From assembly GCA_945875585.1 (NCBI GenBank), contig CAMCLK010000001.1, positions 1 to 64,000 on the forward strand: a stretch of DNA of 64,000 nucleotides, in the 5' to 3' direction. Both the position numbers and the translations under genes were made by a program. The stretch is from Candidatus Kuenenia stuttgartensis. Lineage in GTDB: Bacteria; Planctomycetota; Planctomycetia; Gemmatales; Gemmataceae. Positions 5,234-11,233 of this stretch are shown here, one piece after another. Numbering within the stretch: position 1 is the first letter of the stretch; every line of letters begins with the position of its first letter. The notes beneath the pieces are model-generated. The model made no database searches and was not told the DNA's origin. It saw only the letters and a program-made list of their open reading frames with translations.

Positions 5234-6367
5234 TTACGCTGCGGCGCGCAACGAAACTTCAACCTTGGGGGCCTGCGGGAACATCAAGGTTTCCGGGCCA
5301 GCAAAGTATGACTGTCCCTTTGCAGTCGACAGTTTTTCCCACTGTGACCCGGGAAGACCCATGGCAAGCTTGAGAGCGCCGATGGCTCCAGCATAAACCG
5401 GATCTGGAACGCGCTTTACCTTGGCTTGGCCGTATTCGCGGAGGCCTTCTTCCAGTGCCCTGTCGAGCCCCTTGATCTGGCTGCCACCACCACCCAGCAG
5501 AATATTGGCCAGCAATCTGGGCTGGAATTCTGGGTCGTGGCGGGCGATCAAGTCGCGAATCCCTTCGATGATAGGGTTTAAAATCCGACGGCAGGCTTCG
5601 CGCACCACACCGGTGACATCGAGTTGGGTTGGCTTGCCCCGGCAAGGCAGCGTGACAATGGCGCGTTCGTTGGTGTCGATCACTCCGCCATGACGTTCTT
5701 TGATTTCGCGCAGCATGGCGCGGGAGAACTGAGCTTCGGGGTGCGCCTGACGCAGCAGTGCCTCGAGGTGCTCATCCACAAAATCGCCGCCCAAAGGAAT
5801 GGTGACCTGCTCATCGTCGGTGGGCAGGGTTCCACGGAGTGGGCAAAGATCGATGGTTCCAGCACCGATATCCACAACCAGGGCATCGGACAGCTTGTTG
5901 CAACCGTAGGCAATGCTGAAAGGTTCCGAAACAATCAGCACGGCGTCGAACGTGGTGGAAGCCGCTTCCAGAATGACAGACTTGCTGGCAATGCTGGCTC
6001 TGCTTGGTGCGCCAATTACGCCAAATATCGGAAGACCTTTGGGTGGACGTGTGATGGCAACAGCATGTTCCACAACCTGCCGTGCCGCGTCTTTGTGGGC
6101 AGCAACCTTGGCGGCATCGAACTTCACATCTTTGCCGTCGAGGTACTTGAGCGCGCCCTTTTCGAATGGGCGAATGATATCGAGCGCAAGGCGATGCTCG
6201 GTGAGGTCGGCACCAAACACTGTGTCGCGACCCAGCAGCGTGCGGGCAACGTGGTCCTTTGGTTTGCCAATGGCGGTAGGGATTACTTCACGCACACCGT
6301 GCGCGGTTGCCACCGCAGTTTTGAATGTGCCCAGATCCATACCGACATAAACAGCGCGATGATCCAT
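5234..6367 (-). CDS. MamK/MreB-like bacterial actin
   Basis: A filament-forming actin-fold ATPase of 377 aa, expected in the cytoplasm along the membrane. Motifs are in order: phosphate-1 VGMDLGTFKT (residues 8-17), connect-1 VSEPFSIAYGC (147-157), phosphate-2 VVDIGAGTIDLC (164-175) and the adenosine loop ILLGGGGSQIKG (289-300). DIGAGT-D with a following LRGTLPTDDEQ is closer, by memory, to magnetosome MamK than to cell-shape MreB (DIGGGT). The start at 6367 has GAGGT 7 bases upstream; a longer upstream reading frame runs into the neighbouring gene. It is the last gene of a leftward operon after two paralogous membrane proteins. No magnetosome genes are in view. Confidence 0.85.
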   Translation of the reverse strand: MDHRAVYVGMDLGTFKTAVATAHGVREVIPTAIGKPKDHVARTLLGRDTVFGADLTEHRLALDIIRPFEKGALKYLDGKDVKFDAAKVAAHKDAARQVVEHAVAITRPPKGLPIFGVIGAPSRASIASKSVILEAASTTFDAVLIVSEPFSIAYGCNKLSDALVVDIGAGTIDLCPLRGTLPTDDEQVTIPLGGDFVDEHLEALLRQAHPEAQFSRAMLREIKERHGGVIDTNERAIVTLPCRGKPTQLDVTGVVREACRRILNPIIEGIRDLIARHDPEFQPRLLANILLGGGGSQIKGLDRALEEGLREYGQAKVKRVPDPVYAGAIGALKLAMGLPGSQWEKLSTAKGQSYFAGPETLMFPQAPKVEVSLRAAA

Positions 6368-6398
6368 GACTGATACCTCGATTAGAGTTAAAGTGACT

Positions 6399-7271
6399 TC
6401 AGGATACAATAGGGGAAGTGGTTGGGGTTGTTTCTTCGGCGGCCTGCGCCATGGCGCCACGCATGGCGACATTCGCATCCACGAGGCCCATAAGCATGGC
6501 ATCGCCAGCTTGCTGAGCCATCAACTGCATTTCTGCCTGTTCCTCTTCGAACGTCGGCCCCATTGTGAAATTGGGCTCGCGGGGAACGTACTCAGCTTCG
6601 GCGGGAGCTGATTTCTTTTTCCGCTTCTTGCGGCGTGGTTCCTGATAAGACCAGCCCATCATCGGGCCAGGGCTCTGCATGGTGGTTGATGTTGTGGGCA
6701 TGGTCACATTCACAATCGGTGCCGACTGCATCGGCCGTGGCCTCATGATGGCTACCAAGGCAAGCATGGTGGCCGCTGATCCAAGGCCAACCGACAACGC
6801 CTGCGCATCTTTGCCCAGTACCACAATCCATTCCCAAATGTCGCGAGGCTCAACCTGAGCAACACTCACGGTGGTCATGTTGGCCCGCGGTGCTTTCACG
6901 GGTTCAGCAGGCTCGCGTACTGGCTTTTCTTCGGCAGGTGCCGGATTGGGAGCTGCAAGTGCCTTGTAAGGTTCGGTTGGTGTCAACAGTGGCATCCACT
7001 GAGGCGTGAATTCACGTTGAGCAGGTCTGTAATCGATTGGCTGCAACGGAGTCGCTGTAGCGATTGGGGTTGGTTCGCTGGCGTCCGCCTTTTTAGCAGC
7101 CGCCTCAGGTTTCGCGGCAGGTGTTTCTTCTACCAGTGCCTTTGGTGCTTCTACAGGAATATTGACCCGTTTCACACCGTAATACTGTTCGACAACCTGA
7201 GCCTGGCTTGCCATGGGCAAGAGTGTCAGGCAGGCGATTGCCAACCATTTGATAACCGGTGCCCGTAACAT
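6399..7271 (-). CDS. Unrecognised membrane protein, paralog B of the actin operon
   Basis: No family recognised. The 290-aa protein has a signal peptide (about 1-24, ending ASQA), a Pro/Ala-rich outer segment (40-140), one membrane span (about 158-176, GLGSAATMLALVAIM) and a Lys/Arg cluster at 212-220, which by the positive-inside rule puts the C-terminus in the cytoplasm. The tail carries NFTMGPTFEEE, then LMGLVDANVAMRGAMA. The span and tail match the upstream gene (7290-8030). GGAGGG lies 5 bases before the ATG. It ends 31 bases before the actin gene. A membrane receptor or adaptor for the actin is the natural guess, but nothing proves it. Confidence 0.8.
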   Translation of the reverse strand: MLRAPVIKWLAIACLTLLPMASQAQVVEQYYGVKRVNIPVEAPKALVEETPAAKPEAAAKKADASEPTPIATATPLQPIDYRPAQREFTPQWMPLLTPTEPYKALAAPNPAPAEEKPVREPAEPVKAPRANMTTVSVAQVEPRDIWEWIVVLGKDAQALSVGLGSAATMLALVAIMRPRPMQSAPIVNVTMPTTSTTMQSPGPMMGWSYQEPRRKKRKKKSAPAEAEYVPREPNFTMGPTFEEEQAEMQLMAQQAGDAMLMGLVDANVAMRGAMAQAAEETTPTTSPIVS

Positions 7272-7289
7272 GATGACCCTCCAAATGAG

Positions 7290-8030
7290 TCAGGAAGTAG
7301 TAACGGTTGTATCGGCTGGTGGGATCGTGGTGGATGAACTAAATCTGCTCTCATTAGCGATTGTGCAAGCTGTAGCGATTGCGATAGGGGATTCTGTAGC
7401 GGGAGGTTCGTTGGTTTCTGCTGGCAGATTGGCTATTGCCGAGCGCATGGCCATGTTGCTTTCAAAAAGTCCCATCAGCAGGGCTTCCTCTGCCTGCTGC
7501 GCTTTTTTTGCCTCTTTAGTACGTTCTTCTTCGAAGCTGGGACCCAGGTCATAATTTTGGTAAACGTGAGAGGCTTTATTGCGCACCTCGTCAGGTGCTT
7601 TTTTCTTGGTTCTTGAGGCTTTACGAAGTTTATCGCGGTTCGTGGCGGGCACATGCACATTGATAACCGGCACAATGTGGGCCGATTTGGAACGTGTCAG
7701 CGCCACAACTGCAAGAACGGTGGCAGCGGAACCCAATGCCAACGAGTAATACGAAGAATCAGTTCGTGGAGCAGCCTGTGCCTCCTGAACTACCTGTATG
7801 GGGGCTGGAGCTGGTGCTTGGTGCACTGCTGATGCGGTGTCATCACCTGTGTGCAGCACACCCAAAACATAGGGGTGTGAAACCGAACCTATTTCTATGG
7901 CTGGGGCAGTGTCTGGTATGTGCTCAAGAGGCTTGAAGCTAATGTGCAAGTCTTGAGCGCCAACGAAAGCACTAATGCCAAGAAGGATTGCAACTGCCAG
8001 GCAAAAATATGTTTGCTTTTGGCGGCGCAT
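7290..8030 (-). CDS. Unrecognised membrane protein, paralog A of the actin operon
   Basis: A 246-aa paralog of the next gene and first in the operon. It has a signal peptide (1-25, ending FVGA), a short outer segment with an Ala/Pro run, a membrane span at about 95-112 (SLALGSAATVLAVVAL), a basic stretch (about 131-151) and the C-terminal block NYDLGPSFEEER followed by LLMGLFESNMAMRSAIA. The 42-residue block is identical to paralog B at 22 positions. A Ser/Thr-rich tail of about 45 residues ends it. AGGAAA lies 6 bases before the ATG, and 18 bases separate it from paralog B. Function unknown; topology and neighbourhood suggest a membrane anchor for the actin-like protein. Confidence 0.78.
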   Translation of the reverse strand: MRRQKQTYFCLAVAILLGISAFVGAQDLHISFKPLEHIPDTAPAIEIGSVSHPYVLGVLHTGDDTASAVHQAPAPAPIQVVQEAQAAPRTDSSYYSLALGSAATVLAVVALTRSKSAHIVPVINVHVPATNRDKLRKASRTKKKAPDEVRNKASHVYQNYDLGPSFEEERTKEAKKAQQAEEALLMGLFESNMAMRSAIANLPAETNEPPATESPIAIATACTIANESRFSSSTTIPPADTTVTTS

Positions 8031-8313: not shown

Positions 8314-8904
8314 ATGAGTATTCGGCCAACTGTTTATGTGGTGGCTGGCCCTAATGGGGCCGGAAAAACAACTCTGGCAACCCGTTTCCTTCCCAGATTT
8401 GTCAACTGCCCAATTTTTCTGAATGCCGACCTGATTGCTGCTGGGCTATCCCCATTCGATCCGGCGCGCGAGAGTGTGCGTGCGGGAAAGCTGCTTTTAG
8501 AGCGTATCAACACTTTGACCCAAGAGCGCGCAACATTTGGTTTCGAAACAACCCTGTCTGGCAAAGCCTACGAAGAACGACTGAGGCAAATGCAACTGAG
8601 TGGTTATCGTTTAACCGTGATTTATTTATGGCTTTCCTCCCCTGATACGGCCATTGAGCGGGTAGCCAATCGAGTGGGCCAAGGCGGTCATCACGTGGCA
8701 GCAGATGATATCAAGCGAAGGTACTATTCAGGGTTGCGCCATTTTTTCAACATTTATCAGCAATGCGCAGACCAATGGTGGCTGCTGAATGCCACAAACC
8801 AGACTCCAGATCTAGTGGCTTTCAAGACCGAGGGGACCTTGCTCGTGCAGCAACCAGAGCTATACGATGCCATCAAGAGGCAGGCTTTAGGAGAAACACC
8901 ATGA
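8314..8904 (+). CDS. Zeta-toxin-like P-loop kinase
   Basis: A 196-aa P-loop protein of the zeta toxin/AAA_33 group. Zeta toxins phosphorylate UDP-N-acetylglucosamine and block wall synthesis; chromosomal relatives may use other substrates. Walker A is VVAGPNGAGKTTLATRF (about 8-24), followed by NADLIAAGLSPF, which matches the zeta NxDxxR-like segment, ATFGFETTLSG, IYLWLSSPDTAIERVANRV and the lid region VAADDIKRRYYSG. A small gene overlaps its stop (ATGA), as expected for a toxin-partner pair, although the partner is not an epsilon homologue I can recognise. No clear ribosome site precedes the ATG. Confidence 0.8.
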   Translation: MSIRPTVYVVAGPNGAGKTTLATRFLPRFVNCPIFLNADLIAAGLSPFDPARESVRAGKLLLERINTLTQERATFGFETTLSGKAYEERLRQMQLSGYRLTVIYLWLSSPDTAIERVANRVGQGGHHVAADDIKRRYYSGLRHFFNIYQQCADQWWLLNATNQTPDLVAFKTEGTLLVQQPELYDAIKRQALGETP

Positions 8905-9126: not shown

Positions 9127-9693
9127 TTATCGTTCCTGAGGGAAAATGGCGGAAACCTGAACCGATAGCCCGTTGATCACTGTGGCTGTGACAGAATCTA
9201 ACATCCCATGGATTTCTGTGCTGCCGTAGCCATTGGGACCCGGCAATGTTGATTGCTCAATGATACAGTGAACGAGGTCCACAACCCAGTATTCGACAAT
9301 GCCGCTGGCAGCGTAAAGGGCGCGCTTGACGCCCGTGTCGAGCTCTAGGGAACTGTCAGCCACCTCGATAAGTAATCCGATATCGCTGGGTATTGGGTGT
9401 TGATAAGGTTGGTGGCGATTTCTGCGTATAATGCAGATGTCTGGTTGTGGCATTCCGAATTGACTTAAAGCCACGGGCTGTTGCTCTCGTATTTGCCAGT
9501 CCTTGAGAAAGCATTGTGACAGCAATTCATGAATCAGTGTCAGTATGTAGGCATGCCTTGGTCCGATAGGGCTCATGGGAACGATTTCACCGTCGAGGAG
9601 TTCGATACGCGCATCGGGCGGGAAGATTCCTACTTCCGCCATGCGCAGAAACTGGTCGCTGCTGAACCGGTGTTTCAACGAAGCGGTGGCCAT
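9127..9693 (-). CDS. Uma2-family putative endonuclease, copy 1
   Basis: A PD-(D/E)xK-fold protein (DUF820/Uma2), 188 aa, of a type common and multi-copy in cyanobacteria and planctomycetes; DNA targets are unknown. It has MPQPDICII (catalytic Asp), then LLIEVADSSLELDTGVKRALYAA and EYWVVDL. GGAGG lies 10 bases upstream of the ATG. It is a tandem duplicate of 9697-10266: the first 45 codons and the last third are nearly the same at DNA level, and the middle is diverged. It starts 3 bases after the stop of its copy. Confidence 0.85.
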   Translation of the reverse strand: MATASLKHRFSSDQFLRMAEVGIFPPDARIELLDGEIVPMSPIGPRHAYILTLIHELLSQCFLKDWQIREQQPVALSQFGMPQPDICIIRRNRHQPYQHPIPSDIGLLIEVADSSLELDTGVKRALYAASGIVEYWVVDLVHCIIEQSTLPGPNGYGSTEIHGMLDSVTATVINGLSVQVSAIFPQER

Positions 9694-9696
9694 GGT

Positions 9697-10266
9697 TTAT
9701 GCCTCCGACGGGAATAGGGCAGAAACGGGTACCGATAGCCCGTTGACCACTGTGGCTGTGACAGAATCTATCATCCCATGAGTTTCTGTGATTCCGTAGC
9801 CACTGGGGCCCGGCAAGGTCGATTGTTCAACAGTGCAGTGAACGAGGTCCACAACCCAGTATTCGATAATGCCGCTGGCAGCATAAAGGGCGCGCTTGAC
9901 GCCCGTGTCGAATTCCAAAGAGCTGTCAGCCACTTCTATTACCAAACCAATATCAGCAGGAGTTGGGTGGTGATTGCCATACCGATCATTTCGCCATTTC
10001 GCTATGCAGAAGTCTGGCTGGGGCATGTCCATTCTACTGAGCTTGATGGGATTCTTAACAGCGACCACCCATCGGCGCCCCAAAGCCTCACAGAGAAGCA
10101 TGGTCAGAATGTTGACGATCCCTGCATGACTGGTTCCGATAGGGCTCATGGGAACGATTTCTCCGTCGAGGAGTTCGATGCGCGCATCGGGCGGGAAGAT
10201 TCCTACTTCCGCCATGCGCAGAAACTGGTCGCTGCTGAACTGGTGTTTCAACGAAGCGGTGGCCAT
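9697..10266 (-). CDS. Uma2-family putative endonuclease, copy 2
   Basis: A 189-aa PD-(D/E)xK-fold protein with MPQPDFCIA, LVIEVADSSLEFDTGVKRALYA and EYWVVDL. The start is set at 10266 by alignment with the neighbour copy (both begin MATASLKH) and by GGGG upstream; an earlier in-frame ATG at 10320 would run into the acyltransferase gene. It follows the acyltransferase by 13 bases, so the three leftward genes may share a transcript. Confidence 0.85.
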   Translation of the reverse strand: MATASLKHQFSSDQFLRMAEVGIFPPDARIELLDGEIVPMSPIGTSHAGIVNILTMLLCEALGRRWVVAVKNPIKLSRMDMPQPDFCIAKWRNDRYGNHHPTPADIGLVIEVADSSLEFDTGVKRALYAASGIIEYWVVDLVHCTVEQSTLPGPSGYGITETHGMIDSVTATVVNGLSVPVSALFPSEA

Positions 10267-10279
10267 GGTCCGGGTCCCC

Positions 10280-11233
10280 TTACTGCGCAACCTTTGCCTT
10301 GTTCCGTTTGGGTGGTTCATGCTTCCACCGCCGGTGGAGCCAAAAATATTGCTCGGGGTAACGGCGGATCAGCCTTTCCAGAGCCGCGGTGTAGGCTTCT
10401 GTCAGTCTTGCAACCGCGCCTGCTTGTTCCTTGAAGCTAGCCGGTTCAAGAATTTCTTCGATTTCCAGTTTGTAACGCAACGGACTGCCCACACGCACAG
10501 CGCCGCAAACAATCACGGGCGCATCGTATTCGAGCGCCATCAATGCCAGCGCCTTATGGGTGCTGGCGGGGCGATTAAAGAACGGCACAAATTGACCGCG
10601 TGGCCCCGCATCTTGATCCGCCAGCGTTGCCAGAATACCTCGACCCGCCAGTACTTCTGTAATGCGGTCGAAATCGCCCTTCTTGGCCAGAATGGTCTGC
10701 CCTGTCCGTTGCCTGAACTTTTTCAAAAACGCTTCCAGCCTAGGGTTATCGAGCACGCGTGCAATAGCAAAACTCTGAAAACCAAGCAGCCCCAGCAGGT
10801 AGCCCGCCATTTCCCAATTGCCAAAATGCCCTGTCGCCAAAATCACCGGCCTACCCGACAGCAGCAGATTCACAAGGTCGCCCGGGCGGTCTCCCAATTC
10901 CACATGCTGCCGGTACACGGTAAGACGACAGAGACGAGGCAACCACACCAACTCCACAATCATACGCGCAAAATGAATGAAGGTTGACCGCGCCAACCGC
11001 TCGCGCCGCTGCTTACCTCCGGGAACGGAATCCGCCATTGTTTCCGGAAACGCAAAGGCCAGATTTTCAGTCGCTACCGTGCGGTGGCGTTTGTCGACAC
11101 GATACGCCAATCGGCCGAGGGCCTCGCCCATGGCCATACCCGTTTTCAACGGCATGGCCTGAATGATGCCAACAACGGCGCGCACAAGAGCGTAAACGCC
11201 GAAGTCGAGCCATGTCGCGCGGCGCTCGCTCAT
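10280..11233 (-). CDS. Lipid A biosynthesis acyltransferase (LpxL/HtrB family)
   Basis: Transfers a secondary acyl chain to lipid A, or a related lipid, at the inner membrane. At 317 aa it matches the family. The catalytic HxxxxE is in LATGHFGNWE (His136, Glu141), followed by RVLDNPRLEAFLKKFRQRTG, LADQDAGPRG with a probable pocket role, and LHRRWKHEPP near the end, typical of LpxL. The N-terminal hydrophobic stretch serves as membrane anchor. It supports an LPS-bearing outer membrane in this organism. Confidence 0.88.
   Translation of the reverse strand: MSERRATWLDFGVYALVRAVVGIIQAMPLKTGMAMGEALGRLAYRVDKRHRTVATENLAFAFPETMADSVPGGKQRRERLARSTFIHFARMIVELVWLPRLCRLTVYRQHVELGDRPGDLVNLLLSGRPVILATGHFGNWEMAGYLLGLLGFQSFAIARVLDNPRLEAFLKKFRQRTGQTILAKKGDFDRITEVLAGRGILATLADQDAGPRGQFVPFFNRPASTHKALALMALEYDAPVIVCGAVRVGSPLRYKLEIEEILEPASFKEQAGAVARLTEAYTAALERLIRRYPEQYFWLHRRWKHEPPKRNKAKVAQ

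Follow-up and report, generated by a model that had tools for sequence, protein, structure and literature searches.

A MamK-like actin and its putative single-span membrane anchor in Gemmataceae-like Planctomycetota

Bacterial actins are well known, and few of their partners are. In Magnetospirillum, MamK has the partners McaA and McaB (PMC9512821, PMC13170167); McaA is a signal-peptide, single-span protein that works with MamK via its cytoplasmic side (PMC13170167). Arcadin-2 is encoded with crenactin and carries a conserved C-terminal helix, placed after an unstructured linker, that occupies the actin groove flanked by subdomains IA and IIA; ParR likewise sits in the ParM groove (PMC5173319). 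Non-magnetosome relatives of MamK exist as well: BeeR is a three-stranded actin of Verrucomicrobiota, for which the accessible part of its report describes no adaptor (PMC11929497). Magnetosome genes are already known in Planctomycetes (PMC7449369), and the occurrence of MamK-like actins in planctobacteria has been noted (PMC7203096). In the accessible text of the open full-text literature, no description of the operon or the motif reported here was found.

A three-gene operon with a MamK-like actin

The window, a planctomycete DNA stretch of 64,000 nucleotides, contains three leftward genes separated by gaps of 18 and 31 nt. Inspection of the open reading frames confirmed this predicted operon, which has the following features.

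5234–6367, minus strand: MamK-like actin, 377 aa (NCBIfam MamK 373 bits, Pfam MreB_Mbl, Foldseek)
6399–7271, minus strand: putative membrane anchor 2, 290 aa; a signal peptide and a Pro/Ala-rich outer part precede one span, a basic stretch and a conserved tail predicted to be cytoplasmic
6444–6578, minus strand: conserved, predicted cytoplasmic tail of anchor 2 (tail-profile match 7.9e-20 in its own genome)
6456–6500, minus strand: 15-residue core motif AMLMGLVDANVAMRG of anchor 2, proposed actin-binding helix (phylum-wide motif; coordinates from the ORF)
6744–6800, minus strand: predicted membrane span of anchor 2 (KD 1.99, K/R-rich afterwards)
7290–8030, minus strand: putative membrane anchor 1, 246 aa; genus-specific paralog with a tail like that of anchor 2
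7428–7562, minus strand: conserved, predicted cytoplasmic tail of anchor 1 (tail-profile match 1.6e-19 in its own genome)
7440–7484, minus strand: 15-residue core motif ALLMGLFESNMAMRS of anchor 1, proposed actin-binding helix (phylum-wide motif; coordinates from the ORF)
7695–7751, minus strand: predicted membrane span of anchor 1 (KD 1.62, 12 K/R within the next 40 residues)

The best placement of the actin start is 6367 (MDHRAVYVGMDLGT); a start at 6502 was set aside. Upstream of the operon and divergent from it, the gene at 8314–8904 encodes a P-loop (GPNGAGKTT) and by eye resembles a zeta-toxin-type kinase, and the adjacent genes at 9130–9693 and 9697–10320 encode closely similar paralogs that look, also by eye, like Uma2-type nucleases; none of these has an NCBIfam match.

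The actin scores 373.4 bits against the NCBIfam MamK model, far above its scores for BeeR (208.8) and MreB (45.2), and its best match in the PDB is MamK (5ljw, 4e-70). It is thus MamK-like, as had been predicted. The score lies below the curated cut-off for each of the three models (400 bits for MamK, NF040964; 530 for BeeR; 293 for MreB), and the Pfam MreB_Mbl cut-off of 27 bits is passed with 52.9. MamK structures are also the best Foldseek matches to a model of the ortholog at locus L029, which is 93% identical to the window actin; the model superimposes on 5ljv with a TM score of 0.93, and the aligned sequences are 38–39% identical. The motifs of the nucleotide site (DLGT, DIGAGT, and GGGGSQ) do not vary within the actin alignment save at one position. 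From its family and fold, the protein would be expected to polymerise into cytoplasmic filaments. It is the sole MreB/actin-type filament gene found in its genome, where the remaining matches to the MreB model were rejected as Hsp70-type sequences. Like BeeR, the window actin is a MamK relative from a non-magnetotactic setting. It differs from BeeR in its low score and in lacking a disordered N-terminal extension of 30–50 aa, since its core starts about seven residues after the start.

The window actin differs from MamK in its genomic surroundings, partner, and phylogenetic position. None of the ten flanking proteins scanned belongs to a magnetosome (Mam) family, in agreement with the original prediction. 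In the tree, AMB-1 MamK groups with the actins of loci L144 and L106 (support 0.90), whereas the window actin and most other planctomycete actins form a separate clade of 102 sequences (support 0.97). Locus L144 (G483:C33:10100-19100) is a planctomycete magnetosome cluster, with MamE-like (391 bits), MamM-like (331), and MamN-like (336) proteins and a MamK of 404 bits. A magnetosome origin of the window actin was therefore rejected, and the best reading remains the one first proposed, a different, non-magnetosome cytoskeletal device. The NF040964 cut-off of 400 bits does not split the two groups, as other planctomycete loci reach 443 bits and the magnetosome-cluster MamK has 404. A match to the NCBIfam MamK model is thus no evidence of magnetosomes. 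Of 392 planctomycete genomes, 90 have a protein that reaches the cut-off, so that the name may mislead annotation; among the few loci with annotated flanks, magnetosome genes were seen at L144 only.

Putative membrane anchors and their conservation within the order

Hydropathy analysis of both upstream proteins reveals the predicted layout: an N-terminal hydrophobic signal-like stretch, a Pro/Ala-rich outer segment (29–34% P+A), a single span, and a basic stretch. The outer segment is long in all anchors, poorly conserved, and without a recognised domain. K/R are more numerous in the 40 residues that follow the span than in the 25 preceding it in almost all of the 15 anchors, which places the tail inside. 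By this positive-inside rule, the tails are predicted to be cytoplasmic, on the side of the membrane where the original prediction had put them. The layout resembles that of McaA, which contacts MamK and likewise has a signal peptide, an outer part, one span, and a cytoplasmic C terminus, assigned in the window anchors from hydropathy and the positive-inside rule only. McaA and McaB differ from the window anchors in lying within a magnetosome islet; the window anchors also have a much smaller cytoplasmic part and, in Pfam and NCBIfam searches, no periplasmic VWA domain.

The proposed paralogy of the two anchors is real: their tails are 48% identical over 46 aa, and the likeness extends to the region around the span. 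Neither protein matches a Pfam or NCBIfam family above cut-off, and a check for membership of an unrelated pathway matched no known family or pathway. Identity between the window and L029 falls from 61% in the tail to 40% in the outer part. Different codons are used at 17 of the 28 identical tail residues, indicating selection on the protein; a DNA-level signal as the cause of the conservation was rejected on this ground.

A scan of genome contigs with the window actin returned the sister MAG only, and whole-genome searches were therefore used. The actin is present in 14 of 102 genomes of the order, with 93% identity to the window in the sister species and 54–60% in the others. In all 14, a tail protein is encoded directly upstream. 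At the 13 loci other than the window, the upstream same-strand gene encodes a protein of anchor layout that is orthologous to anchor 2; two of these proteins score low for the span (1.44 and 1.47). The tail consensus of these loci is EKFDLGPSYxEE...A.LxxILxQNLAL. A 46-residue tail profile matches the 14 actin-bearing genomes and G002, a fragmented assembly from the window's genus that is the sole match among the 88 genomes without the actin; the other 87 contain none (Fisher p = 2.5e-16 for co-occurrence over 102 genomes). The second anchor paralog is confined to the window's genus, being in tandem here and unlinked in the sister genomes G001 and G002.

L184:5834-6433 (G001): unlinked relative of anchor 1, next to a dipeptidase-like gene
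L185:6182-6796 (G002): unlinked relative of anchor 1, next to a dipeptidase-like gene

The distribution of tail matches over the genomes thus defines the conserved unit as one anchor plus the actin, not the anchor pair. Conservation of the operon in other planctomycetes was borne out for this unit, which is kept in 13 other genomes; co-occurrence of all three genes was not, because the second paralog is restricted to the genus. A conserved wider neighbourhood was rejected, as only the actin and its partner recur in nearly all loci. The gene that immediately follows the actin comes from one shared family in five of the 12 family loci; two members of this family were scanned in full and have no Pfam match, and the G010 member looks secreted and Pro-rich.

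L030:5842-6858, L031:7795-9027, L032:5147-6703, L034:5828-7258, L035:7982-9541: members of the shared downstream-gene family

A C-terminal motif across the phylum

The core of the tail corresponds approximately to K[KR]x[LM][LM]xxIFxxN[LV]xL[RQK]. Of 392 sampled Planctomycetota genomes, 143 encode a MamK-like actin. Another 100 loci, each with some 4 kb of flanking sequence, were taken from other families, a sample biased to higher-scoring MamK matches. A 15-residue scoring matrix, trained on tails of the window's family only, was run over the six frames of each locus. The best match falls upstream of the actin, on the same strand and within 1.5 kb, in 66 of the 100 loci, with about nine expected; most such matches lie within 200 nt of the actin. 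An iterated matrix raises the number to 82 (6.4 expected) under five-fold cross-validation, in which folds were random and related loci help each other, the count of 66 being free of other-family training. In the cross-validated set, motif position 10 is Asn in 98%. The motif is usually located some ten residues from the stop codon.

Among the 18 misses are all seven sampled members of family f31 and two from f99. At least L071 and L089 have a strong same-strand match at a different distance from the actin, and the L113 sequence stops within the motif.

L122, L128, L138, L141, L142, L147, L165: f31 loci, actin without a detectable motif nearby

The partners in other families mostly lack the membrane span. 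A strong hydrophobic segment was found in one of 78 scanned, at its extreme N terminus. Many contain coiled-coil-like stretches (by eye) and 11 match the GGDEF family, although the GGDEF signature is present in no partner, these 11 included. The motif is thus found phylum-wide and mostly on span-less partners, suggesting a general adaptor of which membrane tethering is one application. A ParA/MinD-like gene is found near 19 of the 100 loci, for example:

L107:5979-6758: ParA/MinD-like ATPase gene
L077:6282-7019: ParA/MinD-like ATPase gene
L094:2249-3022: ParA/MinD-like ATPase gene

The pairing also occurs in a virus. A 49.8-kb viral contig (IMGVR_UViG_3300009370_000045, locus L186) encodes a MamK-like actin between phage genes for a major head protein and terminase, directly preceding the latter. 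Two genes upstream of the actin is a motif-bearing partner of 161 aa that ends in KKLELLKVVFEENKQLRKDLSGE. This is the only such contig found in the viral scans; no relative was found on plasmids or in annotated phage records. At the magnetosome cluster L144, a motif scan of the locus, serving as a control for specificity, found no motif beside MamK.

Partner and actin lie in one frame at three family loci and more than 20 others, so that natural DNA read through the stops gives tail, linker, and actin as one chain. Such readthrough chains from two distant loci, L029 and L068 (the latter from another family), were modelled with AlphaFold2. In the L029 model, the tail helix spans residues 12–52 with pLDDT blocks of up to 93, followed by a linker at 30–40 (pTM 0.81). 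In the L068 model, the helix spans residues 24–48 at 88–92 in its core blocks, with a linker at 32–39 (pTM 0.79). Motif-helix blocks over both models have a pLDDT of 87–93; a lone helix can also score a high pLDDT. The actin accounts for about 353 of 454 (L029) and 337 of 439 (L068) residues, for which the estimated pTM is about 0.73 with the actin alone placed and about 0.79–0.80 with a perfectly placed actin. The observed values exceed the estimate for the placed actin alone by about 0.06–0.08, and thus the helix seems to be placed as well. For the complex of tail and actin whose modelling had been proposed, pLDDT and pTM of the natural fusions are indirectly consistent with docking.

Probable tethering of the filament and alternative readings

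From the precedents of McaA and arcadin-2, we infer that a helix of the anchor docks on the MamK-like filament, which is thereby held at the inner membrane. The motif is probably an actin-binding C-terminal helix that, in Gemmataceae-like bacteria, serves this tie. The actin would form cytoplasmic filaments, and a dedicated single-span protein, inserted through its signal peptide with the Pro/Ala-rich arm outside and the tail inside, would fix them to the inner membrane or to infoldings of it. Contact would be made by the amphipathic tail helix, most likely, by analogy with arcadin-2 on crenactin and ParR on ParM, in the hydrophobic groove of the actin. The window anchors resemble arcadin-2 in that a variable linker leads to a short conserved helix at the C terminus, and in both the crenactin and ParM systems the partner is encoded with the actin. 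Arcadin-2 depolymerises its actin and ParR acts as an adaptor in plasmid segregation; for the window tail, groove binding is a prediction only. The cargo positioned in the cell could be membrane infoldings, envelope machinery, or the nucleoid. To our knowledge, the window tail has no sequence relation to arcadin-2 or ParR.

The tail may instead bind actin monomers and control polymerisation, the partner being a membrane-held sequesterer, capper, or nucleator and not a tether. Arcadin-2, the nearest structural analogue, has a similar layout and depolymerises crenactin (PMC5173319). However, the membrane anchor is the constant feature of the window's family, and ParR, also groove-binding, is described as an adaptor (PMC5173319), which makes control of polymerisation an unlikely role. 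It is also highly unlikely that anchor and actin build an envelope-spanning complex with its main job outside, in which the actin serves as an inner clamp or positioner for an arm that touches the cell wall or the outer membrane. The long Pro/Ala-rich segment of all anchors, the downstream family with its secreted-looking member, and the signal peptide, outer domain, span, and inner region of the MamK partner McaA (PMC13170167) would fit such a complex, but the segment is poorly conserved without a recognised domain, and partners elsewhere in the phylum have no span and hence no outer part.

The motif could also serve a non-actin role such as partner oligomerisation, the genes being linked by co-expression only. 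Many partners look coiled-coil-like and the motif is predicted to be helical. Hardly any weight can be given to this reading, since the motif co-occurs with the actin across the phylum and in a phage, is absent beside the MamK of a true magnetosome cluster, and persists in partners whose N-terminal regions differ. Some points count against the tether: the actin is patchy (14 of 102 genomes) and thus not a core function of the order, the seven f31 loci have an actin without the motif, and a conserved motif on a neighbour could bind something besides actin.

Tethering of the filament to the membrane, originally ascribed to the pair of anchors, is still the best reading, with the unit reduced to one anchor and the actin. 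The window's genus has added a second anchor. For the span-less partners, the motif would be a shared plug and the remainder of the partner would set the destination of the filament. On balance, we lean towards such a plug-in code for a MamK-sister actin in Planctomycetota and at least one phage, whereby adaptors sharing little but the 15-residue C-terminal helix carry membrane anchors, degenerate GGDEF domains, or coiled coils and so address filaments to different cell sites. A motif that predicts the actin partner across the phylum offers a handle on the role of filaments in bacteria with internal membranes, and the non-magnetosome pair is a natural comparison for the recruitment of MamK to magnetosomes.

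In the planctomycete magnetosome cluster, the gene upstream of mamK, which has no NCBIfam match, encodes a 624-aa acidic-repeat protein reminiscent of MamJ.
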